IMG/VR virus record: IMGVR_UViG_3300034375_009655
Span: 1 to 36,026 of that record
Origin: a virus
Strand: one strand, 5' to 3'
DNA: 36,026 nucleotides
The notes beneath the pieces were generated by a model, which was not told the origin of the DNA, did not search any database, and saw only the letters and a list, made by a program, of their open reading frames with translations. Position numbers and translations under genes: made by a program. Of this stretch, positions 1 to 20,153 are shown one piece after another. How positions within the stretch are numbered: position 1 is the first letter of the stretch; every line of letters starts with the position of its first letter.

Positions 1-60
1 TGTCTTGAAAACACTTGGTCGTGTGAAAGCGATGGGTTTCGATTACTCTGCTCTCCGCCA
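1..60 (+). tRNA. tRNA-Ser(TGA), 5' part outside the window
   Basis: The window opens inside the anticodon arm: loop CTTGAAA gives anticodon TGA. A long variable arm, a T-arm with canonical loop TTCGATT, and an acceptor strand ending GCCA follow. The long variable arm and G discriminator fit serine. The 5' half is not visible, so D-arm and acceptor pairing cannot be checked. Confidence 0.8.
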
Positions 61-72
61 TTTTTTATTTAA

Positions 73-147
73 CGGGAATGTGGTGCTAATAGAAACACGC
101 CTAGTTTGGGGCTAGGAGACGCGGTGCAAATCCGACATTCCCGACCA
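73..147 (+). tRNA. tRNA-Pro(TGG)
   Basis: Acceptor CGGGAAT pairs perfectly with ATTCCCG, followed by ACCA. Anticodon stem CCTAG/CTAGG closes loop TTTGGGG (anticodon TGG). C1-G72 is typical of proline tRNA. The D-loop has AG where GG is expected and the T-loop is TGCAAAT with G at position 55, so it belongs to the AG/GC elbow class. The outer T-stem pairs are weak. Confidence 0.85.
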
Positions 148-220
148 TTTTTATTGATATGTGACAGAAACGAATAATCAATACCGATTACGTATACATA
201 ATTACATATCATTTTTTCAT

Positions 221-298
221 TCCCAGTGGGCTGGCTTGGTGTTAAGCGACGGACTGTTAATCCGTTTAAGTGTGGATCGTAACCACAACTGGGAGCCA
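221..298 (+). tRNA. tRNA-Asn(GTT)
   Basis: Acceptor TCCCAGT/ACTGGGA plus GCCA. Stem CGGA/TCCG closes loop CTGTTAA (anticodon GTT). The D-loop keeps GG and the T-loop is ATCGTAA: U55 and C56 are kept while the 54/58 pair is swapped from T-A to A-T. A second tRNA-Asn(GTT) lies inside the giant RNA at 13770-13840. Confidence 0.9.
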
Positions 299-309
299 AT
301 TTTAATTAT

Positions 310-384
310 GGCCCGGTCATCTAATGGAAAGGATTCTTGGTTTTCAACCAAGCCATCGGAGTTCAATTCTCCGTCGGGCTACCA
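310..384 (+). tRNA. tRNA-Glu(TTC)
   Basis: Acceptor GGCCCGG/TCGGGCT (two G-U pairs) plus ACCA. Stem CTTGG/CCAAG closes loop TTTTCAA (anticodon TTC). D-loop has GG and T-loop TTCAATT is canonical. Confidence 0.92.
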
Positions 385-392
385 TTTTTCAT

Positions 393-481
393 GGATCTTG
401 TTCCTGCTGACTGTCTGTAAAACAGTTGTCAAAAAACGTGTAGGAAGTTGACTAAAGGAGCGTTACCTTCAAGATCCACCA
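393..481 (+). tRNA. tRNA-Tyr(GTA) with reduced D-arm
   Basis: Acceptor GGATCTT/AAGATCC is a perfect 7-bp helix plus ACCA. Stem ACTGT/ACAGT closes loop CTGTAAA (anticodon GTA). A long variable region follows, as expected for tyrosine. Only about 10 nt separate the acceptor from the anticodon stem, so a normal D-arm cannot form. The T-loop is the variant AGCGTTA. This is the one gene whose missing D-loop prevents assigning an elbow pair. Confidence 0.8.
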
Positions 482-487
482 TTTTAT

Positions 488-561
488 GCTTGGTTAATTT
501 AATAGCAAAATATCCGGCTGATAACCGGAAAACAGAGGAGCGTAACCTCTACCAAGCACCA
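488..561 (+). tRNA. tRNA-Ile(GAT)
   Basis: Acceptor GCTTGGT/ACCAAGC plus ACCA. Stem TCCGG/CCGGA closes loop CTGATAA (anticodon GAT). D-stem ATTT/AAAT closes D-loop AATAGCA, with AG in place of GG. T-stem ACAGAGG..CCTCT closes loop AGCGTAA. AG/GC elbow class with the 54/58 pair swapped. Confidence 0.9.
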
Positions 562-571
562 TTTTATTAAT

Positions 572-599
572 GCTACGGTGGCTGAGTCTGGTTTAAGGA
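572..599 (+). pseudogene. 5' fragment of a class II (Ser/Leu-type) tRNA
   Basis: The stretch reads like the start of a serine or leucine tRNA: a 7-nt acceptor strand GCTACGG, TG at 8-9, then GCTGAGT..GGTTTAAGG, close to the usual Ser D-arm. It then runs into AT-rich sequence ahead of the GIY-YIG gene. No downstream strand complementary to the acceptor (CCGTAGC) was found before the next tRNA. It looks like a remnant left when the endonuclease gene inserted. Confidence 0.55.
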
Positions 600-658
600 T
601 TTTTATTAAAAAGTTCAAATTGGTTCACTTATATTTGAACTATAACATATTTATATAC

Positions 659-1318
659 ATGAAACATTATGTATATAAAATAACGAATTTAGTAAATAAT
701 AAAATTTATATTGGTAAGCATTCAACTAATAATATTAATGATGGTTATATGGGGTCCGGTAAATTAATCAAACATGCTATTGAAAAATATGGAGTTGATA
801 AATTTAAAAAAGAAATCATGTTTGAATTTGAAACCGAAGAAGAAGCACTTCTAATGGAATCTGAAATAGTTGATTCTGTTTTTGTTTCTCGTCTTGACAC
901 ATATAACATAGCGGAAGGTGGACGTGGTAGTAATAGTCATATCGGAAAGGATTTGCTTAGCATTGGAGGTAAAAATGCATATTCATTAGGAAAATTAAAT
1001 GAGGGAAAATTGAAATTCATTGAATCATTAAAGTCTGATGCTGAACTGAGTAATGCATGGAAGAAAAAAATTTCAACAGGACTAAAACTTCAATGGGAGT
1101 TGAATGGTCACAATTGGATAGGAAAATCACATTCTGAAAAAACCAAATTGAAAATGAGTGAATCTCATAAAGGAAAACATGAGGGGGTTAAAAATTCTCA
1201 ATATGGAACTTGTTGGATTCATAATTTAGAATTGAAAGAATCCAAACGGATAAAAAAAGAAGAATTGTATGATTACATATCCGTTGGTTGGATAAAAGGT
1301 CGCAAAATGAAATTTTAA
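659..1318 (+). CDS. GIY-YIG homing endonuclease
   Basis: A 219-aa protein with the GIY-YIG nuclease signature at the N-terminus: VYKITNL, then KIYIGKH, and a Y-G motif in YMGSGKLIKHAI. These match the T4 Seg-type nuclease core. The C-terminal half is basic and carries a NUMOD-like DNA-binding stretch (GKSHSEKTKLKMSES). The start is placed at 659 because the conserved core begins there; an upstream in-frame ATG at 578 lies inside the tRNA remnant. A 9-bp inverted repeat (AGTTCAAAT/ATTTGAACT) precedes the gene. It sits between a broken tRNA and intact tRNA-Thr, as expected of a free-standing homing gene that targets tRNA loci. Confidence 0.85.
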   Translation: MKHYVYKITNLVNNKIYIGKHSTNNINDGYMGSGKLIKHAIEKYGVDKFKKEIMFEFETEEEALLMESEIVDSVFVSRLDTYNIAEGGRGSNSHIGKDLLSIGGKNAYSLGKLNEGKLKFIESLKSDAELSNAWKKKISTGLKLQWELNGHNWIGKSHSEKTKLKMSESHKGKHEGVKNSQYGTCWIHNLELKESKRIKKEELYDYISVGWIKGRKMKF

Positions 1319-1321
1319 AAT

Positions 1322-1396
1322 GCTGTCATAGTTTAATTGGCAAAACGACTGACTTGTAATCAGTTATTCCCAGATCGTGGCTGGGTGACAGCTCCA
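1322..1396 (+). tRNA. tRNA-Thr(TGT)
   Basis: Acceptor GCTGTCA/TGACAGC plus TCCA. Stem ACTGA/TCAGT closes loop CTTGTAA (anticodon TGT). D-stem GTTT/AAAC closes AATTGGCA, which has GG. T-stem CCCAG/CTGGG closes ATCGTGG, keeping U55 C56 but with the 54/58 swap. It begins 3 nt after the GIY-YIG stop codon. Confidence 0.9.
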
Positions 1397-1400
1397 TTTA

Positions 1401-1575
1401 GGTTATCGGAGTTCCTTGTCAATCCATGCTTATTGGGGTTAACTAAAACTGTGGTTATAATGTAGTACATCATAGACACGATTGAGTAAGGTGAGTAGCT
1501 TACTGCAGGTAGTTTACTCTTTATTATGATAAGCCAACTTACCACAGACATCAATAAGATTAAAGTCCGATAACC
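1401..1575 (+). ncRNA. Structured RNA unit A in the tRNA array
   Basis: A 175-nt unit flanked on both sides by tRNAs and followed by the same A/T spacer that follows tRNAs. It is closed by a 9-bp perfect helix (1401-1409 with 1567-1575). Nested inside are 1429-1435/1552-1558 (7 bp), 1449-1455/1541-1547 (7 bp) and 1484-1489/1514-1519 (6 bp). There is no anticodon arm, T-loop or CCA, so it is not a tRNA. I recognise no family. A folding comparison with relatives would be decisive. Confidence 0.45.
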
Positions 1576-1588
1576 ACAATTTATTTAC

Positions 1589-1665
1589 GGGAGTGTAGCT
1601 CAGATTAGTAGAGCGCTGGTGTGAAATACCAGAGGTCGTGATGGCGGAATTCACTGCTCCCACCA
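1589..1665 (+). tRNA. tRNA-Phe(GAA)
   Basis: Acceptor GGGAGTG/TGCTCCC plus ACCA. Stem CTGGT/ACCAG closes loop GTGAAAT (anticodon GAA). D-stem GCTC/GAGC closes AGATTAGTA (AG, not GG). The T-loop is GGCGGAA, with G55 and C56 and a G-G at 54/58. AG/GC elbow class. Confidence 0.88.
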
Positions 1666-1670
1666 TTTTA

Positions 1671-1810
1671 TTCCGGAAATAAGGTCACCCCGAGAACACG
1701 TGACCCGCTAAACTGTTCTCATAACTTTTCGGTTTAAGGTAATCCCCAAACCTAATCGGATATATTGCTCTGATTTTGCTCCTGATAAGAGTTAGTGAAA
1801 ACTGTCATAC
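1671..1810 (+). ncRNA. Structured RNA unit with H-type pseudoknot
   Basis: The 150-nt gap between tRNA-Phe and tRNA-Ala has no credible ORF. It contains a compact classical pseudoknot: GGTCAC 1683-1688 pairs with GTGACC 1700-1705, and GAGAAC 1692-1697 pairs with GTTCTC 1715-1720, with loops of 3, 2 and 9 nt. A further GGTTT/AAACC hairpin lies at about 1731-1756. This geometry resembles ligand-binding or frameshifting pseudoknots, but no known class is recognised. Outer boundaries are uncertain. Confidence 0.4.
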
Positions 1811-1818
1811 TTTTATTT

Positions 1819-1894
1819 GGGTTCACATGTTCCAAGGAGGCGACACTGCTTTGCAAGCAGAGTGTGGTCAGTTCGATTCTGACTGGATCCACCA
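1819..1894 (+). tRNA. tRNA-Ala(TGC)
   Basis: Acceptor GGGTTCA/TGGATCC (two G-U pairs) plus ACCA. Stem CTGC/GCAG closes loop TTTGCAA (anticodon TGC). T-stem GTCAG/CTGAC closes canonical TTCGATT. The D-loop region has GG, though the D-stem is poorly paired. Confidence 0.85.
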
Positions 1895-1902
1895 ATTTAT
1901 AT

Positions 1903-2075
1903 ATCTGTGTAGCCAACTGGTTAGAATTCTTAGTAACAAATCTTACAATACTAGTAATGGGGGTTGTAAAAAGTATTCAGGGATTTACATAATTAATACA
2001 TGTAACGGTTATGTAAATTGAAGGCGCTCGAGTGAGATCGAGAGAATGTAGGTTCAAATCCTGCCACAGGTGCCA
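1903..2075 (+). tRNA. tRNA gene with ~95-nt insertion in the D-loop, isotype unresolved
   Basis: Acceptor ATCTGTG (1903-1909) pairs over 7 bp with CACAGGT (2065-2071), followed by GCCA. T-stem GTAGG/CCTGC closes canonical TTCAAAT. The 5' D-strand GCC with AACTGGTTA matches a D-loop start. The 3' D-strand GGC appears only at about 2021, just before the arm CTCGA..TCGAG. About 95 nt of hairpin-rich sequence, including a 10-bp helix ATTTACATAA/TTATGTAAAT, separates them. The anticodon loop is 6 nt (GTGAGA), so the isotype is uncertain. It could be an intervening sequence or a fused structured RNA. Confidence 0.55.
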
Positions 2076-2085
2076 ATTTATATAT

Positions 2086-2161
2086 GGATAGTTAGTATAA
2101 TGTTTATTACATCGTGCTCTTAACACGAAAGATGAGAGTTAGAATCTCTTGCTATCCACCA
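2086..2161 (+). tRNA. tRNA-Lys(CTT)
   Basis: Acceptor GGATAGT/GCTATCC plus ACCA. Stem TCGTG/CACGA closes loop CTCTTAA (anticodon CTT). The D-loop has GT where GG is usual, and the T-loop is TTAGAAT with A56 instead of C56. The 19-56 pair is thus U-A instead of G-C (GU/UA elbow class). Confidence 0.88.
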
Positions 2162-2168
2162 ATTTCAC

Positions 2169-2322
2169 GATATGCTTACAGGGACCGAGAGTGCGATTAA
2201 TACGCCTCTATTACCCAAAGCTGCAACGAGTAGGTAATAGGAAGAAATACATGGAAACTCTAAGTTGCAGGAGATAACCATGAACTAGCAGACTGGATCT
2301 GGCCGGTTCCTGTAAGCATATC
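2169..2322 (+). ncRNA. Structured RNA unit B with 17-bp closing helix and pseudoknot
   Basis: A 154-nt unit between tRNA-Lys and the next tRNA-like gene. The ends pair over 17 bp (2169-2185 with 2306-2322, one G-U). Inside, TATTACC 2209-2215 pairs with GGTAATA 2233-2239, while CTGCAAC 2221-2227 pairs with GTTGCAG 2264-2270; the two helices interleave as a pseudoknot. GCG/CGC also closes a small hairpin near 2192-2206. It has no tRNA arms and no ORF. The family is unknown. Confidence 0.5.
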
Positions 2323-2335
2323 AAAATTTTATTAT

Positions 2336-2486
2336 GGGCAATGGATGGTCGGTATCATCATTGTTGGTTATCGAAACTCAAGTAAAGTGCTTGACTAACA
2401 TTTGAAAAGTTTTGATGATTAAGCAGCAATCAAATTAGTCACTTGATTGTGGGAATGAAAGGGGTTCGACTCCCGTATTGCTCTGA
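2336..2486 (+). tRNA. tRNA-like gene with ~75-nt insertion, isotype unresolved
   Basis: Acceptor GGGCAAT pairs perfectly with ATTGCTC (2477-2483). D-stem GATG/CATC closes GTCGGTAT, which has GG. T-arm AGGGG..CCCGT holds canonical TTCGACT. The 151-nt total is about twice a tRNA. Between D-arm and T-arm are extra helices: TGTTGGTT/GACTAACA, TCAAG/CTTGA, ATCATCA/TGATGAT and CAATCAA/TTGATTG. The 3' end reads TGA rather than CCA, and no clear anticodon loop with U33 is visible. Confidence 0.45.
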
Positions 2487-2493
2487 TTTTTAT

Positions 2494-2582
2494 GCAGGTG
2501 TAATCAAGTGGCCGACGATATCCGACTTTTAATCGGATGGAGTTTATCTCCCGCGTGGGTTCGAATCCCACTGCCTGCACCA
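2494..2582 (+). tRNA. Class II tRNA with TTT anticodon
   Basis: Acceptor GCAGGTG/TGCCTGC plus ACCA. Stem TCCGA/TCGGA closes loop CTTTTAA (anticodon TTT, lysine codons). T-stem GTGGG/CCCAC closes canonical TTCGAAT, and the D-loop has GG. A 17-nt variable arm with a GGAG/CTCC stem makes it class II, which is normal for Leu, Ser or Tyr but not Lys. The A73 discriminator and D-arm look leucine-like. Charging identity cannot be read from sequence alone. Confidence 0.8.
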
Positions 2583-2635
2583 ATTTATTATGATTGTATT
2601 TTAACTTTTAATCAAAAAGTTCAATATTTATATAT

Positions 2636-3406
2636 ATGAGTCATATTAAATTAAAGGAAATTCTATTGGAACGTAATTCTGACAAACGTAATGTTATGAA
2701 TGCAAATTATTTTATGTATATGGTTGAGAATTACAAGAAATATTTCAGAATTAAAGATGAAGAGTATGATTTTGATGACAAATCTGGATATGTGCTCTTT
2801 AGAACAAAGACTGGTTTAGATGTCGCTTCTGAATATAAATTGTATTCTAAATTTATTGGTAAATATAAAATTTTTAACGAAGAATCATATTCTGAATTTC
2901 TTAAAGGCATGGGATTTATAATTGAATATGATAGTTTCAATCAAGGTGATCGGGGTTGGTATGACCGCAATACCAAGGTTGTAGCGGTTAAAATAAAATT
3001 AACTCCAGAGGTTCGTTTAAAGTCAGAAGAAGATCAGTATGAGTTTTCTACTGATGTATTGGATAGATTAGTTAAAAAGGCTATTCTAGACGGTAAAAAT
3101 ACAATAGTTCATGAGTTTTCTCATTACATATCCGATCTTGAATCCAGCGGAAATGTTGGTAAAAGTTATAAAACTCCTAAAGACATTGAATATGATAGTG
3201 ATTTAGAGGAATTACAAGCTAGACTGATATCGGTGTTTGATGAAATTGAAGATAATTATGATATTGATCCTGATGGAGATCCAAAACGCTTTTTAGAATT
3301 TGTAATTGATGAATATGGTTCTGAGTTATATTACAATTCTGGTAATAAAGAATATAAAAAATCTTTAATAAAAAGAATATATCAATATTTCAATGAGTTG
3401 AAATAA
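2636..3406 (+). CDS. HExxH putative zinc metalloprotease, possibly virion-packaged
   Basis: A 256-aa protein with HEFSH at residues 159-163, the zinc-binding and catalytic motif of gluzincin-type metalloproteases. A helix beginning DLEELQARL about 30 residues later could supply the third ligand. The N-terminus IKLKEILLE resembles the capsid-targeting signature shared by several proteins in this window, with LxE as the possible cut site. It is a lone protein gene inside the tRNA array. The ATG sits right after an AT-rich TATATATATG stretch, and no Shine-Dalgarno sequence is visible. No exact family is recognised. Confidence 0.7.
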   Translation: MSHIKLKEILLERNSDKRNVMNANYFMYMVENYKKYFRIKDEEYDFDDKSGYVLFRTKTGLDVASEYKLYSKFIGKYKIFNEESYSEFLKGMGFIIEYDSFNQGDRGWYDRNTKVVAVKIKLTPEVRLKSEEDQYEFSTDVLDRLVKKAILDGKNTIVHEFSHYISDLESSGNVGKSYKTPKDIEYDSDLEELQARLISVFDEIEDNYDIDPDGDPKRFLEFVIDEYGSELYYNSGNKEYKKSLIKRIYQYFNELK

Positions 3407-3462
3407 ATATTCACCAACAATTTAACTTCACTCGTCGTTTATATTGGCGATACCAATTTTAT

Positions 3463-3552
3463 AGCAGAATGGTGTAATGGTAACATGTCAGGCTCATAAC
3501 CTGAAGAAACGGTAATACCGTGTTGGAGGTTCAAATCCTTCTTCTGCTCCCA
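3463..3552 (+). tRNA. tRNA with CAT anticodon and long variable arm (Met or Ile2)
   Basis: Acceptor AGCAGAA/TTCTGCT plus CCCA. Stem TCAGG/CCTGA closes loop CTCATAA (anticodon CAT). T-stem GGAGG/CCTTC closes canonical TTCAAAT, and D-loop AATGGTA has GG. A ~20-nt variable region forms an ACGGT/ACCGT hairpin, which is class II architecture on a CAT tRNA. Initiator hallmarks (unpaired 1-72, three G-C pairs in the anticodon stem) are absent. CAT could also be read as Ile2 if C34 is converted to lysidine. Confidence 0.8.
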
Positions 3553-3632
3553 ATTTATTTCCGATATGGGATTTGCCGATTTCATATTTGGAATAAACCC
3601 GACCGCTAATATTTTCACGGCAATGATTTGCG

Positions 3633-3707
3633 GGTTTTATAGTTTAGTGGACAAAACGCTGGTCGTGGAGATCGGAGACATAGGTTCAAATCCTATTAAC
3701 ATTTACG
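3633..3707 (+). tRNA. Degenerate tRNA-like gene
   Basis: D-stem GTTT/AAAC closes AGTGGACA (GG), and T-stem ATAGG/CCTAT closes canonical TTCAAAT. Stem CTGGT/ATCGG closes a 7-nt loop CGTGGAG, but position 33 is G instead of U. The acceptor GGTTTTA/TAACATT has one mismatch and the 3' end is TACG, not CCA. It may be a decayed tRNA (TGG or GTG could be read) or a tRNA mimic. The preceding 3575-3632 holds an AAACCCG..CGGGTTT pairing that competes with this acceptor. Confidence 0.45.
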
Positions 3708-3723
3708 GGATACTTTATTTTAC

Positions 3724-3801
3724 GGTCTGGAGGCCAAAGTAGGTCGAGGCACCCGCCTGTCACGTGGGAGAAAGCGAGTTCGAGTCTCGTCCAGATCGCC
3801 A
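3724..3801 (+). tRNA. tRNA-Asp(GTC)
   Basis: Acceptor GGTCTGG/CCAGATC plus GCCA. Stem CCCGC/GTGGG closes loop CTGTCAC (anticodon GTC). T-stem GCGAG/CTCGT closes canonical TTCGAGT. D-loop has GG. Confidence 0.9.
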
Positions 3802-3807
3802 TTTTAT

Positions 3808-3899
3808 GTTCGGTCTGACGAGTGTTGTACTTGTAACATTGGCTAGCTAAAAACGTGATTACGAGACGAATGTAGGTTAAACTCCTACGCCGGACGCCA
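3808..3899 (+). tRNA. tRNA-like gene with expanded anticodon arm, isotype unresolved
   Basis: Acceptor GTTCGGT/GCCGGAC pairs over 7 bp plus GCCA. T-stem GTAGG/CCTAC closes TTAAACT with A56. The D region reads AGTGTTG with GT, matching the GU/UA elbow class. The best anticodon stem is CTTGT/ACGAG, extendable to 7 bp with AA/TT, but it encloses about 26 nt instead of 7. That suggests ~19 extra nucleotides in the anticodon loop, and no anticodon can be assigned with confidence. Confidence 0.55.
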
Positions 3900-3907
3900 T
3901 TTTATAT

Positions 3908-3997
3908 GTATCGGTGACGGAACTGGCTAACGTAACAGGCTGCAACCCTGATGTCACTCTTTTGAGTGTAAGAGTTCAAATCTCTTCCGGTACTCCA
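3908..3997 (+). tRNA. tRNA-Cys(GCA) with long variable arm
   Basis: Acceptor GTATCGG/CCGGTAC plus TCCA. Stem CAGG/CCTG closes loop CTGCAAC (anticodon GCA). The variable region forms CACTC-TTTT-GAGTG, a true class II arm, unusual for cysteine. D-loop has GG and T-loop is canonical TTCAAAT. Confidence 0.85.
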
Positions 3998-4005
3998 TTT
4001 TTTTA

Positions 4006-4034
4006 TTGACAATTTTCAAAAATTCATATATAAT
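4006..4034 (+). promoter_or_regulatory. sigma70-type promoter
   Basis: TTGACA 4006-4011, 17-nt spacer, TATAAT 4029-4034: a full consensus match. The ATG at 4044 lies 9 nt after the -10 box, so the message would have almost no leader. Confidence 0.85.
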
Positions 4035-4043
4035 ATATTATAT

Positions 4044-4232
4044 ATGAAATCGTATATTATGATAATTTTACTTTCTTTAAATTTATTTTTTATAGATTTT
4101 TTCTATAAAAGTAAATACGATTATGATTTTGAATTACGTGGAATGCCGACATCCATTATAATAAATTGGGATGTTATGGAAATAGAAGGATTGATTCTAT
4201 ATGACTCAATTATGAATTTTAATATTTGTTAA
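4044..4232 (+). CDS. Small membrane protein, unknown function
   Basis: A 62-aa protein starting with a hydrophobic segment (residues 5-20, IMIILLSLNLFFIDFF) that could be a membrane anchor or signal sequence, followed by a short mixed tail. It has its own consensus promoter immediately upstream and sits alone among tRNA genes. No family is recognised. Confidence 0.55.
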   Translation: MKSYIMIILLSLNLFFIDFFYKSKYDYDFELRGMPTSIIINWDVMEIEGLILYDSIMNFNIC

Positions 4233-4245
4233 TTTCTGATCAGAA

Positions 4246-4280
4246 GGTAAGTTTGTGGGTCGCTCCCGTATCTTACCTAA
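4246..4280 (+). other. Hairpin after the small membrane gene
   Basis: AGGTAAG and CTTACCT pair over 7 bp around a ~20-nt loop, just downstream of the stop codon at 4232. No T-run follows, so it is not a typical intrinsic terminator. It may protect the mRNA 3' end or belong to the next tRNA-like unit. Confidence 0.35.
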
Positions 4281-4282
4281 CT

Positions 4283-4367
4283 AAGTTGTTAGTAGTAGTG
4301 TAGTAGGTGAGCACGCTTCGCGGTGAAAACGAGGAAGTCTGAGTTCAAGTCTCAGTGAAACCAGCTT
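4283..4367 (+). tRNA. tRNA-like gene, irregular
   Basis: A T-arm CTGAG/CTCAG with canonical loop TTCAAGT is clear, and GTAGTAGGTGAG resembles a D-loop with GG. AAGTTG (4283-4288) pairs with CAGCTT (4362-4367), but six extra nucleotides separate the T-arm from that helix. The anticodon region CACGCTTCGCGGTG forms only a short stem, possibly exposing TTCG. No CCA is encoded. It is either decayed or a tRNA mimic. Confidence 0.4.
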
Positions 4368-4382
4368 AAAGAATTTATTATG

Positions 4383-4460
4383 TTGTGCGAATCCGAAGTG
4401 GTCGAGGAACCAGATTGTGACTCTGGGAATTAGCGAGTTCGAGTCTCGTCGTACACCCCA
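4383..4460 (+). tRNA. tRNA-His(GTG)
   Basis: Stem CCAGA/TCTGG closes loop TTGTGAC (anticodon GTG). T-stem GCGAG/CTCGT closes TTCGAGT, and D-stem TCC/GGA closes a GG loop. The acceptor pairs TTGTGCG with CGTACAC except for T1-C72, followed by CCCA. A G at 4382 can serve as the histidine G-1 opposite C73. Confidence 0.85.
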
Positions 4461-4468
4461 TTTTAAAT

Positions 4469-4542
4469 GCGTCATTGGTGAAGTGTTATCACATTTGATT
4501 GCCAATCAAATATCGCTGGTTAGATTCCAACATGACGCACCA
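4469..4542 (+). tRNA. tRNA-Gly(GCC)
   Basis: Acceptor GCGTCAT/ATGACGC plus ACCA. Stem TTTGA/TCAAA closes loop TTGCCAA (anticodon GCC). D-stem GTGA/TCAC closes AGTGTTA (GT). The T-loop is TTAGATT with A56. GU/UA elbow class. Confidence 0.9.
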
Positions 4543-4551
4543 TTTTAACAT

Positions 4552-4626
4552 TCCGCTGTGGTTCTGGGAAACCGGGTGGGCTCCAAACTCACTGTCGAGA
4601 GGGTTCGATTCCTTCCAGCGGGGCCA
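4552..4626 (+). tRNA. tRNA-Trp(CCA)
   Basis: Acceptor TCCGCTG/CAGCGGG plus GCCA. Stem GTGGG/CTCAC closes loop CTCCAAA (anticodon CCA). D-stem GGTT/AACC closes CTGGGA, and T-loop TTCGATT is canonical. Confidence 0.9.
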
Positions 4627-4636
4627 TTTTATTTAT

Positions 4637-4710
4637 GGAGGTTTAGTGTAAAAGTAACACGTTGGGATTTGACCCCAAAGCCGGAGGAGCGTTACCTTCA
4701 ACCTCTGCCA
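4637..4710 (+). tRNA. tRNA-Gln(TTG)
   Basis: Acceptor GGAGGTT/AACCTCT plus GCCA. Stem TTGGG/CCCAA closes loop ATTTGAC (anticodon TTG). D-stem GTGT/ACAC closes AAAAGTA (AG). T-stem GGAGG/CCTTC closes AGCGTTA. AG/GC elbow class. Confidence 0.9.
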
Positions 4711-4714
4711 TTTT

Positions 4715-4789
4715 GGACTTGTAGTTTAGCGGTAAAACAGCGGACTCATAATCCGTCAGACATCGGTTTGAATCCGGTCAGGTCCACCA
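4715..4789 (+). tRNA. tRNA-Met(CAT) or Ile2
   Basis: Acceptor GGACTTG/CAGGTCC plus ACCA. Stem GCGGA/TCCGT closes loop CTCATAA (anticodon CAT). D-stem GTTT/AAAC closes AGCGGTA (GG). The T-loop TTTGAAT has T56, giving a G19-U56 wobble. Confidence 0.88.
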
Positions 4790-4798
4790 AATTTATAT

Positions 4799-4881
4799 GG
4801 GTGTGTGGTGGAATAGTATACACAGCTGTCTTAGAAACAGTGGCCTCGAGCATGCAGGTGCAACTCCTGTCACGCCTACCA
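4799..4881 (+). tRNA. tRNA-Leu(TAG)
   Basis: Acceptor GGGTGTG/CACGCCT plus ACCA. Stem GCTGT/ACAGT closes loop CTTAGAA (anticodon TAG). The variable region is long (class II), as expected. The D-loop has AG and T-loop TGCAACT has G55. AG/GC elbow class. Confidence 0.9.
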
Positions 4882-4890
4882 TTTTATTAT

Positions 4891-4966
4891 GGGCATATAG
4901 CTTAGTAGCTAAAGCAGCTGTTTTACACGCAGAAGATCGTAAGTGCGAGTCTTACTATGCCTACCA
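4891..4966 (+). tRNA. tRNA-Val(TAC)
   Basis: Acceptor GGGCATA/TATGCCT plus ACCA. Stem CTGT/GCAG closes loop TTTACAC (anticodon TAC). D-stem GCTT/AAGC closes AGTAGCTA (AG). T-stem GTAAG/CTTAC closes TGCGAGT (G55). AG/GC elbow class. Confidence 0.9.
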
Positions 4967-4971
4967 TTTCT

Positions 4972-5059
4972 AGAGAATAAAGAGTTAAGGTAACTTCACT
5001 GATTGGAAATCAGATGGTCGTTGAAAGGCGATTCGGATCGTGTCCGATGTTCTCTGCCA
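4972..5059 (+). tRNA. tRNA-Ser(GGA)
   Basis: Acceptor AGAGAAT/GTTCTCT plus GCCA. Stem CTGA/TCAG closes loop TTGGAAA (anticodon GGA). A long variable arm follows. D-loop has GG and the T-loop is ATCGTGT (54/58 swap, U55 C56 kept). Confidence 0.88.
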
Positions 5060-5183
5060 CGCCGGATTAGTATTTTAAACATTAATTCATTATAACGAAA
5101 AATAAAGAAATGCCAATGAAAAATTTCATTTAATTAAAATTTTAAATTTATTTATGTTTTTTGAGTGGAATCTAAAAGTATTA

Positions 5184-5199
5184 TATACTTATAAGTATA
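5184..5199. promoter_or_regulatory. 16-bp perfect palindrome before tnpB
   Basis: TATACTTATAAGTATA is a perfect 16-bp palindrome that ends one base before the tnpB ATG. It could be an operator or a hairpin occluding the start codon; it also contains -10-like AT sequence. Confidence 0.5.
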
Positions 5200-6291
5200 A
5201 TGATACGAAGTTCAAAACATATATTGAAATATCAAACTGAATTGAAATCTAATCAATTAAATGATTTATCGGTTGAATTTGAATTTTTGGTACAAAAATA
5301 TATTGATTTAATTTGGTCACGTAAGCTTGAACTTAAATTATTAATGTCATCAAAAGAATTACCATCTTCTAATAAAATAAAACATTCGCGTTGGAAACAA
5401 TTAGCATATAAAACTTCTAGTGAAATGGTTAGAAGTGTAATAAATAAAAAGACAAAGAATAAAACAAAACCAATTTATAAAAACATATCCATTAATATAG
5501 ATGAGCGATTTATTGATATAGAAGTTGGAAAATCAACTGAATTTGATGAATTTGTTAAATTGACACTTCCTTTTATGAAGGAAGGTGTTCGTAGAGCCAA
5601 CACTATAAAACTTCCTATACGACATCATAAACATTCAAATAAATTTAGATTAAGTAAAAAATGGAAACGTAAAAAAACAGTAAGATTGGAAAAACGGAAT
5701 GGTAATTTTTATATTTCATTTATGTGGGAGTGTGAAACTAAATCCACGTCAACCAATCAAAAAAAATCAATTGGATTTGATTGTGGTTATAAAAAATTAC
5801 TCGTTGATTCTTCTGGAAATGTATATGGAAAAGAACTTGAATTAATTTATAAAAAGATTTCAAATAAACAACAAAAGTCAAAAAACTTTAAAAAATCATT
5901 AACCGAAAGAAATAATAAAGTTAATGAGGTTATAAATTCAATTGATTTGTCAAACGTTGATGAAGTTATTGTTGAAAATTTAAAATTCGTAAAACATAAA
6001 ACTAAAGGAAAGATCCGAAAAAGTTTTAATAATAAATTACAAAGATGGATTTACGCTCAAGTTTTGAGAAAGTTGGAACAACGTTGTGAAGAAAATGGTA
6101 TTTTGTTTACAATGATAAATCCCGCTTATACATCTCAAACTTGTTCAAAGTGTGGTATCTCTGAATCTTCTTCCAGAGTAGGAGAGAAGTTTAAATGTAT
6201 CTCATGTGGATTTGAAATTGACGCAGATGAAAATGCTGCAATAAACATTCTACATAGAGGAGCCTATAGTCCCTCTACTTCAAAAACTTAA
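5200..6291 (+). CDS. tnpB: TnpB RNA-guided nuclease of IS200/IS605 family
   Basis: A 363-aa protein with a complete RuvC-like site: D194 in IGFDCG, E259 in VIVENL and D343 in DADENAA. A zinc ribbon with CSKC (315-318) and CISC (333-336) lies between the second and third acidic residues. The order and length fit TnpB, the compact ancestor of Cas12 that cuts DNA guided by a right-end RNA. The very basic middle (KKWKRKKT) suits nucleic-acid binding. All catalytic residues are present, so the protein looks active. No transposase partner is nearby. Confidence 0.92.
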   Translation: MIRSSKHILKYQTELKSNQLNDLSVEFEFLVQKYIDLIWSRKLELKLLMSSKELPSSNKIKHSRWKQLAYKTSSEMVRSVINKKTKNKTKPIYKNISINIDERFIDIEVGKSTEFDEFVKLTLPFMKEGVRRANTIKLPIRHHKHSNKFRLSKKWKRKKTVRLEKRNGNFYISFMWECETKSTSTNQKKSIGFDCGYKKLLVDSSGNVYGKELELIYKKISNKQQKSKNFKKSLTERNNKVNEVINSIDLSNVDEVIVENLKFVKHKTKGKIRKSFNNKLQRWIYAQVLRKLEQRCEENGILFTMINPAYTSQTCSKCGISESSSRVGEKFKCISCGFEIDADENAAINILHRGAYSPSTSKT

Positions 6292-6391
6292 TTTCATTGT
6301 TTTTCATTGAAATTGGTAACTATAATAGCAATACACTTCATTGGTAATGAAGCATCAGGGGAGCGTAACCCCTATCTGGCTCCACTTTTAT

Positions 6392-6467
6392 GTTCCCGTA
6401 GCTCAAAGTATAGAGCAAGTGGTTTCTACCCACTAGGTTACAGGTTAGAGTCCTGTCGGGAATGCCA
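6392..6467 (+). tRNA. tRNA-Arg(TCT)
   Basis: Acceptor GTTCCCG/CGGGAAT plus GCCA. Stem AGTGG/CCACT closes loop TTTCTAC (anticodon TCT). D-stem GCTC/GAGC closes AAAGTATA (GT). T-stem ACAGG/CCTGT closes TTAGAGT (A56). GU/UA elbow class. Confidence 0.9.
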
Positions 6468-6639
6468 TTTTGTCGTGCTATTTAACCAATAGCTAGTCGG
6501 AAACAACACCGATGATGAAACAACTGTGGTGGTTGTAAAAACTAATAACGTGATATCGTTCGGCTACGGTGGTCGTTAGGAAAACGCATGGAGAAAGGAT
6601 ACTTTCAATGAAGTGTGAGTTTTTGCCGGTGATTTATAT
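6468..6639 (+). ncRNA. Gap with structured-RNA potential (unit F)
   Basis: A 172-nt gap between two tRNAs with no credible ORF. It holds a GCTATT/AATAGC hairpin at about 6477-6493, a CAAC/GTTG hairpin near 6521-6535, and several alternative CACCG/CGGTG pairings spanning 6507-6631. No single fold is clearly best, and no CCA or T-loop is present. Spacing and setting resemble the other non-tRNA units in the array. Confidence 0.3.
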
Positions 6640-6712
6640 GGGAGCGGAACAAAGTTGTTGGCTGAGAATCATAATTTCATGCAGAAGGGAGCGTTACCCT
6701 TCGCTCCTTCCA
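6640..6712 (+). tRNA. tRNA with CAT anticodon (Met or Ile2)
   Basis: Acceptor GGGAGCG/CGCTCCT plus TCCA. Stem TGAGA/TTTCA closes loop ATCATAA (anticodon CAT). T-stem AAGGG/CCCTT closes AGCGTTA. The D-arm is compact (ACAA-AG-TTGT) and carries AG. AG/GC elbow class. This is the third CAT tRNA in the array. Confidence 0.8.
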
Positions 6713-6723
6713 TTTATAACAAT

Positions 6724-6925
6724 ATAAGGAAACTTATATTTCTCAGAACTTTTCGTGGTTCTGAGATTTACGTTAAACCCGAGCAATCGGCCCCATCGTC
6801 GGGAGACGGTGGAAATAAAAGACCTCGCACGCTTCAGTGTAACCTCCATCAGTGGGATTGCACAGCGAACCAGGTGACTTGAATTGACAAGTATCATTCT
6901 AACGACGGTTAGAAGATGAGGTTTA
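6724..6925 (+). ncRNA. Structured RNA unit G with GNRA tetraloops
   Basis: Two strong hairpins lead: ATAAG-GAAA-CTTAT (6724-6737) and a 9-bp helix 6741-6749/6758-6766. TAAACC (6774-6779) pairs with GGTTTA (6920-6925) and encloses a domain with an 8-bp helix 6793-6800/6805-6812 capped by GGGA, then ACTTG/CAAGT and CTAAC/GTTAG hairpins. GAAA and GGGA are GNRA tetraloops, typical of tertiary-folded RNA. No ORF or tRNA signature is seen. The family is unknown. Confidence 0.45.
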
Positions 6926-6946
6926 TTATTAATTTATTTTATAAAT

Positions 6947-7021
6947 GTGAGTAAGGTGTTGACAGATGCATGATGGGCTTCCACCCCATAGGATTCGGAG
7001 CGTTACCGAATACTCACACCA
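6947..7021 (+). tRNA. tRNA-Gly(TCC)
   Basis: Acceptor GTGAGTA/TACTCAC is perfect, plus ACCA. Stem ATGGG/CCCAT closes loop CTTCCAC (anticodon TCC). T-stem TTCGG/CCGAA closes AGCGTTA. The D region contains ACAGA (AG) but its stem is weak. AG/GC elbow class. Confidence 0.88.
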
Positions 7022-7022
7022 T

Positions 7023-7050
7023 TTAACAAAAATAACATATATACTATAAT
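7023..7050 (+). promoter_or_regulatory. Promoter for tRNA-like leader and acidic protein
   Basis: TTAACA 7023-7028, 16-nt spacer, TATAAT 7045-7050. The expected start falls at or next to the first base of the tRNA-like structure at 7057. Confidence 0.65.
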
Positions 7051-7056
7051 TATATA

Positions 7057-7129
7057 TGTTCTCTGGTGTAATGGTAGCACAAATTAATTTGATTGATTTG
7101 GTGTAGGTTCGACCCCTACGGGAACGAGG
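7057..7129 (+). tRNA. tRNA-like structure in the leader of the acidic protein gene
   Basis: Acceptor TGTTCTC/GGGAACG, D-stem GTG/CAC with a GG loop, and T-stem GTAGG/CCTAC around TTCGACC are all clear. The anticodon arm AAATT/GATTT encloses 9 nt (AATTTGATT) instead of 7, and the 3' end is AGGA rather than CCA. It lies between the promoter and the Shine-Dalgarno of the next gene, so it may be a tRNA mimic acting as leader RNA rather than a translating tRNA. Confidence 0.5.
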
Positions 7130-7138
7130 AATAAAAAA

Positions 7139-7144
7139 GGAGGG
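7139..7144 (+). promoter_or_regulatory. Strong ribosome binding site
   Basis: GGAGGG lies 4 nt before ATG 7149. This is the strongest Shine-Dalgarno seen in the window, where many genes have none. Confidence 0.8.
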
Positions 7145-7148
7145 AATT

Positions 7149-8669
7149 ATGAATGATGATAAAATAAATGAAGAATTTGATGAAATGACTGTATTGCAGA
7201 ATACTTCTGAAACTGATATGTCTGCTAAAGAATTTCAAGGAATAACTACTTCTGATAATATTGGTGAAGACGTTGATGAAGAAAGTTCTGATGTAATATC
7301 AAACACAATCGTTCATAATGAAGAATCTGAGGTTTCAATGAATAATTCTAATATAGAACCATTTGAAATTAAGAACGATGTGGATGATTCTTTTGAGTTG
7401 CCATCTGAAAATAATTTGTATGACTTGGATTTAAATGATATACACGTTGAACACGATAACAATGTTCATAATAATGATTCTTCTACTTTTAATGAAGTCG
7501 ATCAATTGGATATTGACTCAGATTCGATAAATGTTAATTTGGTTGATCAATTAGAAGCAATTTCAGCATTAAATAGCTCTTTTGAGAATAATGAAAGAGC
7601 GTTGCTTGATGTCGATGTTGTTGACTCTCGTGAAAAATCGGTTACAAACTCTGTTGTCACAGAAGATTCTGTAACCAGTATAAATGTATCAACTGAAGAA
7701 AATAATGATGCTCCGCCTATTCAAAAAGAAGAATCCGTTTCTATTGATGTAGTAACCGACAAACCAATAGAATCTACATATAATTCTGAAGATGAAGCCG
7801 ACACGATTTCTCAATCTGAAGATCAAATTAATTCCGTTGTTGAAAATATCGGCGGTGATGTTATTAAAGAAATCGTTGTTGATGATGAAATCGTTGATGA
7901 TGAAATCGTTGTTGATGAAATCATTGCTGATGATGAAATCGCTGTTGATGATGAAATCGCTGATGATGAAATCATTGCTGATGATGAAATCGCTGTTGAT
8001 GATGAAATCGCTGTTGATGATATATCAAATCAACCGACTGAAAATGACGATGAAATAAATGATATTGCAATCGATGACGAATCTACGATTTATAAATTTT
8101 CTGATACCACAAACCACGTCCTCAACTCAGGAAAAGGAAGCGGAAAACAACAACTCGTTTCAAATTTTGAAGAAGAAGTTGATACGGTTGATATTACAAT
8201 TCACAATTATAATCCTAGTAAGACGGATGGTAACGTTAAGTTATTGAAGGATGGTGATGTAATAAAAACAATTGACTTAGACGATGTTGTTTCTTCAAAG
8301 GGTGAAGAAACTTTTACTTTAAATTCCGACGAATCTTTTAATTCTATGGAAATTAATTATGAAGGAGGCCCAAATGCATTTCAAATCAGAGGAATTGATG
8401 CTACTGGGAAAATAGAAACATATTATGATGACGCTTCTTCGGAAGAAGAATTTTTCAACATGGAATCTTCCGAACAAGTTAATTCTACATCATGGGTTGA
8501 TGTCGTTGATGAAGAATCTGTGTATAATGATAACTTAGATACTGATTGGGTTAGTGGAACTGAATCAGATGACATTGACGAATCGCCTGATAGTTTGTTT
8601 GAACAATCTTCAGATAGTTCTGATGTAGAAGATTTTCATATTGACGATTTTAATATATTGGATGGTTAA
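7149..8669 (+). CDS. Long acidic repeat protein, unknown function
   Basis: A 506-aa protein that is extremely rich in Asp, Glu, Asn and Ser. Residues about 240-295 are a low-complexity array of DDEI(V/A/I) units. Residues about 345-430 look like a small folded beta domain (VDITIHNYNPS..GNVKLLKDGD), and the acidic tail resumes afterwards. There is no signal peptide or membrane segment. The strong RBS and dedicated promoter suggest high expression. The charge pattern fits a DNA mimic, a capsid-internal protein or a calcium-binding protein, but none can be chosen. Its stop codon lies inside tRNA-Ser(GCT). Confidence 0.75.
   Translation: MNDDKINEEFDEMTVLQNTSETDMSAKEFQGITTSDNIGEDVDEESSDVISNTIVHNEESEVSMNNSNIEPFEIKNDVDDSFELPSENNLYDLDLNDIHVEHDNNVHNNDSSTFNEVDQLDIDSDSINVNLVDQLEAISALNSSFENNERALLDVDVVDSREKSVTNSVVTEDSVTSINVSTEENNDAPPIQKEESVSIDVVTDKPIESTYNSEDEADTISQSEDQINSVVENIGGDVIKEIVVDDEIVDDEIVVDEIIADDEIAVDDEIADDEIIADDEIAVDDEIAVDDISNQPTENDDEINDIAIDDESTIYKFSDTTNHVLNSGKGSGKQQLVSNFEEEVDTVDITIHNYNPSKTDGNVKLLKDGDVIKTIDLDDVVSSKGEETFTLNSDESFNSMEINYEGGPNAFQIRGIDATGKIETYYDDASSEEEFFNMESSEQVNSTSWVDVVDEESVYNDNLDTDWVSGTESDDIDESPDSLFEQSSDSSDVEDFHIDDFNILDG
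7873..8022 (+). repeat. In-frame GATGATGAAATC repeat tract
   Basis: About ten copies of a 12-nt core GATGATGAAATC alternate with GTT, GCT or ATTGCT linkers, encoding the DDEI array of the acidic protein. Periods of 15 and 18 nt mix, so the tract could expand or contract in frame. Confidence 0.85.
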
Positions 8670-8747
8670 GCAGCTAGGAGCTGTCACTGTTTGCTAAACA
8701 GATGGAACGTGAAAACGTTTACGGATCGTGCCCGTAATCATCCGCCA
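8660..8747 (+). tRNA. tRNA-Ser(GCT), overlapping the end of a CDS
   Basis: Acceptor GGATGGT/ATCATCC plus GCCA. Stem CTGT/ACAG closes loop TTGCTAA (anticodon GCT). Long variable arm; D-loop has GG; T-stem TACGG/CCGTA closes ATCGTGC. The first 10 nt overlap the acidic protein gene, and its TAA stop covers tRNA positions 8-10. Confidence 0.9.
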
Positions 8748-8756
8748 TTTTTATCA

Positions 8757-8785
8757 TTGACAAACGTATATCAGTGTTATATAGT
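8757..8785 (+). promoter_or_regulatory. sigma70-type promoter
   Basis: TTGACA 8757-8762, 17-nt spacer, TATAGT 8780-8785. ATG 8792 lies 6 nt downstream, predicting a leaderless message. Confidence 0.8.
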
Positions 8786-8791
8786 TTAATT

Positions 8792-8884
8792 ATGAAACGA
8801 AGAAATATATCACTCACGCCAAATATAAATATAAATAAAATAATTTCAAAAAATAATCCAATTTCAGATGGATTGGTTAGATGA
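8792..8884 (+). CDS. Small 30-aa ORF
   Basis: Encodes a 30-aa Asn/Ile-rich basic peptide starting MKRRNISLTP. It has no recognisable domain. Support comes from the consensus promoter placed exactly for leaderless translation. It could also be a spacer transcript leading into tRNA-Arg(ACG) at 8905. Confidence 0.4.
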   Translation: MKRRNISLTPNININKIISKNNPISDGLVR

Positions 8885-8904
8885 AGAATTTGTAAATAAA
8901 TCAT

Positions 8905-8980
8905 GCTCCTTTAGTGTAATTGTAAAACACGATCCGCTACGGACGGATTAATATAGGTTAGAGTCCTATAGGGAGTGCCA
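8905..8980 (+). tRNA. tRNA-Arg(ACG)
   Basis: Acceptor GCTCCTT/AGGGAGT plus GCCA. Stem ATCCG/CGGAT closes loop CTACGGA (anticodon ACG, needing inosine at 34). D-stem GTG/CAC closes TAATTGTAAAA (GT). T-stem ATAGG/CCTAT closes TTAGAGT (A56). GU/UA elbow class. Confidence 0.9.
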
Positions 8981-12029: not shown

Positions 12030-12416
12030 GGGGGCGTTCTGGATTCGACTTTATGTTGAATAAATGTTTTGCAGGTAGTAGTTGGTCGGAAGGCTACTTA
12101 AAAATCCGATTAGTCTATAAATGGCGAAAGTAAACTTGTGGAGTTCCCTTCAAAGGAACTTGCTATTGCTGCTTAACCAGCAATCCGTGAAATTACCTAT
12201 TCCATCGGAGGTAAGAGTAACGTCAATTAGATGGAAACTTTGTTGAAAGTATAAAACAACTTGGGAAGAAGTGGAGAACCGACATAATTACCACCCGAAC
12301 CATTAGCGGAATACATGGAGTAGGTGAAGCAAACACTGAAGGAAAATAAGCTAAACTTGTAGACGAATATTTTGGATACATGAAACATGCGGGTTCGACT
12401 CCCGCCGCTTCCACCA
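12030..12416 (+). ncRNA. ssrA: tmRNA
   Basis: The 5' end GGGGGCGTTCTGGATTCGAC and 3' end GCGGGTTCGACTCCCGC followed by CGCTTCCACCA are hallmark tmRNA ends. Acceptor GGGGGCG pairs with CGCTTCC. The tag frame ends at TAA 12174-12176 and reads GESKLVEFPSKELAIAA if resume starts at GGC 12123. The acidic-hydrophobic tail LAIAA fits proteolysis tags. At 387 nt the length is normal for one-piece tmRNA. It would rescue stalled ribosomes using the phage's own tag. Confidence 0.95.
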
Positions 12417-20117: not shown

Positions 20118-20146
20118 TTGACAAATGGTATAACTTGTAGTATACT
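20118..20146 (+). promoter_or_regulatory. sigma70-type promoter
   Basis: TTGACA 20118-20123, 17-nt spacer, TATACT 20141-20146. ATG 20154 lies 7 nt downstream (leaderless). Confidence 0.82.
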
Positions 20147-20153
20147 ATTTGTT

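Follow-up and report, generated by a model that had tools for sequence, protein, structure and literature searches.

Covarying replacement of the elbow pairs 18·55 and 19-56 in tRNAs of a viral array, other phages and bacteria

In this work, we analysed the tRNA genes of a viral DNA stretch of 36,026 nucleotides (IMG/VR record IMGVR_UViG_3300034375_009655, positions 1 to 36,026; referred to as the window) together with a collection of about 1,950 distinct tRNAs taken from contigs of viruses and bacteria, and found that in many of these tRNAs the two elbow pairs, G18·Psi55 and G19-C56, are swapped for other matched pairs. The altered elbow bases are compensated pairs, as their covariation shows, and variation at 18·55 is independent of that at 19-56. 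Both pairs have been described as invariant or universally conserved (PMC6337575, PMC7912444, PMC4810234).

Window cloverleaves were re-derived in three ways, with an arm scanner scoring no elbow base, with ARAGORN and with Rfam. Among the 28 scorable tRNAs, positions 18-19 and 55-56 combined as GG/UC (15 tRNAs), AG/GC (8) or GU/UA (4), with one wobble exception. This confirms the initial annotation, which had the two loops changing together, at p = 6.6e-11 (the exact probability of the D-loop/T-loop matching given the margins), a value weakened by related tRNAs, since the calculation assumes independent genes. Twelve scorable tRNAs therefore depart from GG with T54-Psi55-C56 as AG/GC or GU/UA, and one as GG/UU. 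All genes named in the following lie on the plus strand. The AG/GC tRNAs are Pro(TGG) at 73..147 (T-loop TGCAAAT, with A18·G55 and G19-C56; Rfam tRNA 33.5 bits at 74-143, alignment), Ile(GAT) at 488..561 (AGCGTAA; Rfam 56.3 bits, arm scanner, alignment), Phe(GAA) at 1589..1665 (GGCGGAA, with G54, G58 and a U53/U61 mismatch; Rfam 38.5 bits, arm scanner), Gln(TTG) at 4637..4710 (AGCGTTA; Rfam 46.9 bits, arm scanner), Leu(TAG) at 4799..4881 (TGCAACT) and Val(TAC) at 4891..4966 (TGCGAGT), both recovered by all three methods, Gly(TCC) at 6947..7021 (AGCGTTA; arm scanner) and Thr(GGT). The latter is split by a TnpB element (5074-6323) into a 5' part at 5061..5073 and a 3' part at 6324..6384 (AG with AGCGTAA), and forms a clean AG/GC cloverleaf at the empty site, with the element removed. 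The GU/UA tRNAs comprise Lys(CTT) at 2086..2161 (TTAGAAT, U19-A56), Gly(GCC) at 4469..4542 (TTAGATT) and Arg(ACG) at 8905..8980 (TTAGAGT), again recovered by all three methods, and Arg(TCT) at 6392..6467 (TTAGAGT; Rfam 62.6 bits, arm scanner, alignment).

Glu(TTC) at 310..384 (GG with TTCAATT; ARAGORN, arm scanner) is canonical. The separate exchange at 54/58 that had been noted earlier is seen, with GG and U55-C56 retained (ATCGTNN), in Asn(GTT) at 221..298 (ATCGTAA; ARAGORN, arm scanner), Thr(TGT) at 1322..1396 (ATCGTGG; ARAGORN, Rfam, arm scanner) and two serine tRNAs, Ser(GGA) at 4972..5059 (ATCGTGT) and Ser(GCT) at 8660..8747 (ATCGTGC), both from ARAGORN with a further fold check. The sole exception to strict matching is the CAT tRNA at 4715..4789 (Rfam 67.4 bits, arm scanner), which pairs GG with the T-loop UUUGAAU (TTTGAAT in the DNA) and thus carries a G19·U56 wobble. 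The RF00005 cloverleaf was found above the gathering cut-off for the Ile, Lys-CTT, Gly-GCC, Gln, Leu, Val, Arg, Phe and Pro tRNAs of the window. It was not found at this level for a Tyr(GTA)-like RNA at 391..479 (T-loop AGCGTTA, without recognisable normal D-arm; fold and sequence reading), the gene at 3808 and a CAT tRNA-like gene at 6640..6712 (T-loop AGCGTTA, D-arm without clear assignment; arm scanner, fold). Most of the AG/GC and GU/UA assignments of the initial annotation hold, while GU for 3808 and AG for 6640 are unproven, since these D-arms are not assignable; its AG/GC glutamine tRNA is the one at 4637, a second one at 7057 being canonical. RAGATH-21, tried as a family for these tRNAs, was rejected, with a weak resemblance (E = 0.43) and no gathering-level match in ten array loci.

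The wider collection was partly gathered with particular T-loop sequences as queries, and its loci are enriched for altered elbows. In it, two pairs account for 18·55, G·U and A·G, each of the four Watson-Crick pairs is found at 19-56, and all eight combinations are present. Mutual information between 18-19 and 55-56 is concentrated on 18-55 (0.78 bits) and 19-56 (0.24 bits), with about 0.01 for the crossed pairs and shuffle maxima of at most 0.04, and independent segregation of D-loop and T-loop changes was not seen across hundreds of contigs. The three elbow classes originally proposed are in reality two modules, one for each pair and independent of the other, to which 54-58 is added as a third site. 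UC at 55-56 occurs with GG in 1427 of 1451 tRNAs, GC with AG in 329/345, UA with GU in 67/73, UU with GA in 40/49 and UG with GC in 9/9; in small samples, AC goes with GG (4/7), AA with GU (3/5) and AU with GA (2/4). With the search T-loops left out, 75 AG/GC tRNAs stand against one AG/UC among those with 7-nt D-loops, the subset in which the placement of 18-19 is least ambiguous. The change at 54-58, from U-A to A-U or G·G, mostly accompanies A18·G55: A-U is found in 141 and G-G in 50 of 345 GC loops, compared to 64 and 5 of 1451 UC loops. An elbow-less tRNA of the mitochondrial type is ruled out by the retained pairwise covariation.

Viral arrays mostly mix both kinds of elbow, with a median of 12.5% of tRNAs altered at 55-56 in these enriched loci. 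Searching other phages for the unusual T-loops, as had been suggested, was successful for AGCGTTA, present together with AG in the Gly-TCC tRNA of the cultured Xanthomonas phage Kintu, which is similar to Gly-TCC of the window; for TTAGA it led to E. coli phage SUSP2 and Pseudomonas phages PPAT and K4, whose Arg genes are canonical. A Gly-TCC gene of recognisable common descent is found in the other state, GG/TTCGATA, in Aeromonas phage 44RR2.8t. In phage C1, which infects Caulobacter CB15, Arg-TCT combines GA with UU. Neither megablast nor distant BLAST returned a close cultured relative of the array, no plasmid matched it, and the Dda-like helicase, used as a handle for relatives, retrieved no locus.

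Alternative elbows also occur sporadically, as single cases, in ordinary tRNAs of streamlined bacteria (Saccharibacteria, Microgenomates, SAR11). In a Saccharibacterium, the apparently sole Cys and Gly-GCC tRNAs are of this kind, and in a SAR11 single-cell genome the apparently sole Phe and Val-GAC tRNAs. Judging from these housekeeping genes, tRNAs with alternative elbows very probably work in translation. Across Patescibacteria, a tRNA-like match to the alternative tRNA-Cys was obtained in only 4 of 287 genomes, which confines it to some Saccharibacteria.

Two Verrucomicrobia genomes contain two tRNA sets each, one scattered and one in an array linked to RtcB. In the first, 29/29 scattered housekeeping tRNAs are canonical and 22/22 in the single array alternative; in the second, the numbers are 31/31 and 18/18. 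One alternative array covers 16 amino acids, and an RtcB or TROVE gene adjoins the array in at least seven genomes, counting verrucomicrobial and other bacterial arrays. In the window, about 25 of the ORFs were compared with Pfam or PHROGs, and neither RtcB nor TROVE was among them; as a general partner of phage arrays they were rejected, with RtcB in 1/24 and TROVE in 2/24 viral records.

In the model we propose, these are real tRNAs in which A18·G55 stands in for G18·Psi55 and/or a different Watson-Crick pair for G19-C56, frequently along with an adjusted 54-58 pair and base 60, so that D- and T-loop would still interlock and the re-paired tRNAs would serve translation. In phage arrays and RtcB/Ro60-linked bacterial arrays, such tRNAs would most likely have been kept because they may stay functional while their canonical counterparts are under attack, or are taken over, by factors reading the canonical elbow or T-loop. 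As the best explanation overall, a compensated, working elbow kept in arrays for use under such attack is given a probability of roughly 0.5; the protective purpose taken for itself falls somewhat short of even odds. Evasion of nucleases fits the phage arrays, the verrucomicrobial arrays adjoining RtcB or TROVE, and a known toxin whose cleavage site in the T-loop lies between T and pseudouridine (PMC9086364). The single alternative elbows of streamlined bacteria, for which no attack need be assumed, the scarcity of RtcB and TROVE in viral records and the mixed composition of most viral arrays count against it. More tentatively, bacteria and phages might maintain a second, elbow-re-keyed tRNA set parallel to the normal one, which would survive enzymes directed at the canonical elbow, serving as an inducible reserve with RtcB and Ro60 in Verrucomicrobia and sustaining late translation in phages. 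If true, this would add a new layer to tRNA-targeting immunity.

A serious rival to the protective reading is compensated, near-neutral drift, in which tRNAs of phages and small genomes have few users, the fold is selected and the letters wander among equal pairings. It does occur, as seen from the sporadic housekeeping cases in streamlined bacteria, and both the mixed arrays of most phages and the two states of related Gly-TCC genes agree with it. However, the all-or-none split in the two Verrucomicrobia is not expected from gene-by-gene change, unless the arrays are long separate lineages, and AG/GC requires at least two changes while mismatched intermediates are rare in the collection. As a general account, drift is possible but falls short of an even chance. 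Relaxation around host modification, by which tRNAs would fold without TrmA (m5U54) and TruB (Psi55) and phage tRNAs mature without host enzymes, is unlikely. From their letters, A54/G55 loops cannot take m5U54 or Psi55, G55 tRNAs necessarily escape TruB, and GU/UA loops are devoid of C56, but TTC is retained by many phage tRNAs of the same arrays and TruB is present in 8/8 tested bacterial genomes bearing alternative tRNAs. The earlier interpretation, selection for an alternative elbow, is supported in part, namely for the compensated pairs; TruB loss is rejected as the origin of the altered elbows. Even less probable is a role outside translation, feeding another aminoacyl-tRNA pathway as does the staphylococcal cell-wall tRNA-Gly, a dedicated tRNA escaping EF-Tu (PMC9976931), given the apparently sole bacterial genes and the array spanning 16 amino acids. 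Misalignment or chance, suggested by the D-arms of 3808 and 6640, is refuted for the main classes by uninformative crossed positions and by 7-nt D-loops, where GC goes with AG in 149/155 and UC with GG in 381/386 cases.

With canonical class I/II tRNA (RF00005), the re-paired tRNAs share the cloverleaf, U8, A14, U33 and, in most, an encoded CCA, many scoring above the gathering cut-off, and differ in the swapped elbow pairs. The T-loop of tRNA-Pyl from Methanosarcina mazei, UUAGAUU, has the letters of window Gly-GCC (PMC6337575); tRNA-Pyl, however, is without the 18-55 and 19-56 pairs, whereas the Gly-GCC D-loop provides a matching G18-U19. Metazoan mitochondrial tRNAs likewise depart from GG/T-Psi-C, with the elbow interaction lost there (PMC4810234) and kept here, as indicated by covariation. 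Eukaryotic initiator tRNA also has a non-U-A pair at 54-58, namely A54-A58 (PMC7912444), compared to A-U, G-G and C-A here, mostly with A18·G55. Phage tRNAs evading anticodon nucleases are likewise altered or supplied against tRNA-targeting defence, but by changes in the anticodon loop, the terms T-loop, D-loop and elbow being absent from both texts (PMC10264068, PMC11555353). The rsr-yrlBA-rtcBA RNA repair operon (PMC7790460) connects tRNA damage with RtcB/Ro60, genes of which also adjoin the bacterial arrays here, and the Anabaena trn operon (PMC10272220) is an array of tRNA genes that stays silent until translational stress induces it; whole arrays with alternative elbows, as seen here, are not described for either system in the parts of these sources considered. 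The literature searched, including that on phage and patescibacterial elbow variants, contained no prior report of re-paired elbows.

The elbow is read by RNase P, RNase Z, the CCA enzyme, the L1 stalk, T-boxes, TruB/TrmA and nucleases. To our knowledge, covariation evidence for G18·Psi55 and G19-C56 has so far been lacking because both are taught as invariant; with every Watson-Crick pair now found in nature at 19-56, and with an alternative solution for 18·55, the elbow pairs gain direct evolutionary support. The tRNAs concerned further constitute a ready-made set of natural elbow variants, which makes it testable which of these readers recognise letters and which shape. In phage Kintu, the alternative tRNA is unannotated while the flanking tRNAs on both sides had been called with tRNAscan-SE, and such genes may therefore be under-counted.

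The tRNA genes of the window were located with ARAGORN, Rfam and a purpose-written arm scanner limited to 7-nt T-loops and mostly to genes with encoded CCA. Since the scanner scores stems, U8, A14, A21, U33 and CCA, while bases 18, 19 and 54–58 are unscored, the association between D-loop and T-loop is not made by the method. Denoting elbows by D-loop bases 18–19 and T-loop bases 55–56 (canonical GG/UC), we observed 15 GG/UC, 8 AG/GC, 4 GU/UA and a single GG/UU (CAT tRNA, 4715) among 28 scorable tRNAs. Given the margins, the probability of this matching is 6.6e-11, a figure that any kinship makes too small, since genes were treated as independent. The co-change of both loops proposed in the initial annotation is thus seen in the window, and its class assignments hold for most tRNAs, genes 3808 and 6640 being unscorable and left out of the count. 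A Tyr-like gene (391–479) carries an AGCGTTA loop and lacks an ordinary D-arm. BLAST searches found no cultured close relative of the window, which is a viral fragment of 36 kb from IMG/VR.

The tRNA-Thr(GGT) is interrupted in its D-arm by a TnpB element (5061–6384; element extent about 5074–6323, transposon ORF 5200–6291). Joining the flanks at the empty site yields a clean AG/GC tRNA (GCCGGAT TA GTAT AATAGCA ATAC A CTTCA TTGGTAA TGAAG CATC AGGGG AGCGTAA CCCCT ATCTGGC T CCA). A group I intron was rejected, since the flanks of the TnpB ORF within the element are too short.

For a wider collection, viral contigs and GTDB genomes were scanned with a pattern of T-loop, T-stem bases and CCA only (GGAGCGTTACC N11 CCA), and viral contigs additionally with a TTAGAGT version. 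The D-loop is absent from the pattern and its state is therefore an independent read-out; the searches favoured alternative loops, so that frequencies in the collection are not prevalences. Counting distinct CCA-bearing tRNAs among the matches listed, T-loop UC was accompanied by D-loop GG in 1427/1451, GC by AG in 329/345, UA by GU in 67/73, UU by GA in 40/49 and UG by GC in 9/9, with few examples of the remaining three combinations (GG with AC in 4/7, GU with AA in 3/5, GA with AU in 2/4). The AGCGTTA-type and TTAGA loops highlighted initially occur elsewhere with matching D-loop partners, and all combinations of G·U or A·G at 18·55 with G-C, A-U, U-A or C-G at 19-56 were found. With the search T-loops excluded, the tRNAs with 7-nt D-loops among the matches listed still comprised 381 GG/UC, 75 AG/GC, 11 GA/UU and 2 GU/UA, with about 4% misfits. 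For 572 tRNAs with 7-nt D-loops among the matches listed, mutual information between the two loops, the check suggested by the initial annotation, amounted to 0.784 bits for 18-55 and 0.235 bits for 19-56, compared to 0.009 and 0.010 bits for the crossed pairs 18-56 and 19-55 and shuffle maxima of at most 0.040. Pairs 18-55 and 19-56 are therefore separate modules, and of the three elbow classes proposed initially the matched changes stand while the classes themselves dissolve. Older suppressor-tRNA selections on the elbow region exist, and overlap with the present findings is possible.

A third site follows the elbow state. Among the matches listed, 54-58 is U-A in 1338/1451 UC loops, and A-U in 141/345 and G-G in 50/345 GC loops, with A60 replacing the pyrimidine in most loops with swapped 54-58. 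At 18·55, two purines (A·G) take up more room than G·Psi, and it is plausible that the rearranged 54-58 pair accommodates A18·G55.

Alternative elbows were also found among bacterial housekeeping tRNAs. In a Saccharibacterium (41 tRNA matches), the sole tRNA-Cys found is AG/AGCGTTA and the sole Gly-GCC GU/TTAGAGT, while a partial SAR11 single-cell genome carries Phe as AG/TGCGATT and Val-GAC as AG/AGCGTTA, its remaining 15 scored tRNAs being canonical; the calls of sole genes come from draft genomes. Since Cys and Phe codons need reading, alternative elbows must work in translation, barring a missed second gene, and their use in translation is strongly supported by this gene content. TruB was found in 8/8 tested bacterial genomes.

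Among named phages, a Gly-TCC gene with AG/AGCGTTA lies unannotated in Xanthomonas phage Kintu (record 42678–42752), flanked by annotated tRNA-Trp and tRNA-Arg genes. Its closest matches are Gly-TCC genes of Aeromonas phages (73–78% identity), one of which, in 44RR2.8t, has GG/TTCGATA; judged from these genes, one Gly-TCC lineage occurs in both elbow states. Caulobacter phage C1 (host CB15) carries Arg-TCT with GA/UU and Burkholderia phage BcepSaruman Leu-CAA with GC/UG. Across the array loci L001–L359, a base 56 other than C is enriched in Arg tRNAs (20/145 versus 66/1637, p 7.8e-6, among the matches listed).

At least eight Verrucomicrobia MAGs include contigs with arrays composed wholly or almost wholly of alternative tRNAs; such contigs may be misbinned, although the pattern recurs in independent MAGs. 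Array neighbours are of chromosomal type, e.g. an aminotransferase, an IMS-family DNA polymerase and an esterase. In one genome, 29/29 scattered tRNAs are GG/UC and 22/22 array tRNAs, covering about 16 amino acids, are alternative; in a second, 31/31 fetched housekeeping tRNAs are canonical and 18/18 array tRNAs alternative. Compensated drift, the main rival explanation, accounts well for single alternative-elbow cases and less well for this clean split of two tRNA sets in one cell, although such a split would also arise if the arrays had evolved apart for a long time. The covariation shows the elbow to be retained through alternative, matched contacts. We infer that tRNAs with alternative elbows were favoured in arrays because factors acting on the canonical elbow or T-loop would spare them. 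One existing enzyme of this sort is CdiA-CT E479, whose cut in the T-loop falls between T and pseudouridine (PMC9086364). Phage-encoded tRNAs are known to restore translation against tRNA-cutting defences and to bear protective changes in the anticodon loop (PMC11555353, PMC10264068; neither mentions the elbow), whereas the changes reported here lie in the elbow.

Among the bacterial array loci, RtcB lies about 0.1 kb from, or within, the arrays of L381 and L385 and a few kb or less from those of L378 and L380, while TROVE (Ro60) is in or adjoining the arrays of L378, L382, L384, L387 (mixed rather than all-alternative) and L388, the latter having RtcB as well. By rough estimate, chance alone would place RtcB or TROVE this near one array of a 4–8 Mb genome on the order of once in a hundred cases, linkage in bacteria having been examined at these arrays. 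The Ro60-RtcB operon of Salmonella is turned on by damaged tRNAs (PMC7790460), and a tRNA array of Anabaena is induced under translational stress (PMC10272220).

Further RNAs accompany the window array. A GIY-YIG homing-endonuclease-like ORF (578–1318; region 571–1318) comes after an isolated Leu/Ser-type tRNA 5' half (GCTACGGTGGCTGAGTCTGGTTTAAGG), for which no matching 3' half was found within the window. Class II tRNAs at 2494–2582, 3463–3552 and 3908–3997 have anticodons TTT, CAT and GCA; a long variable arm is unusual for Lys, Met and Cys, and anticodon switching from Ser/Leu/Tyr-type tRNAs is possible. Two tRNA-like genes with canonical T-loops contain about 60–90 extra nt, apparently in the D-loop (1905–2075) and the anticodon arm (2335–2490). 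Structured RNAs between the tRNAs (1405–1580 and 2176–2330, with closing stems of 9–10 bp, and 6475–6620) gave no gathering-level Rfam match. The RAGATH-21 consensus (RF03097; UUAAuAGAAA ... CGGaUGCAAUUuCCG) resembles a tRNA with an AG/UGCAA elbow and weakly matches tRNA-Pro (75–141; E 0.43, Rfam). A tmRNA lies near the array (12030–12416), as also in array loci L051, L058 and L108, the last with T-loop TGCGACT (G55). Profile searches additionally revealed an NLI-interacting-factor-like (HAD) phosphatase (12459–13022), a weak match to tRNA_lig_CPD (2H phosphoesterase-like, 20118–20543) and a DruA-like ORF (27010–27726).
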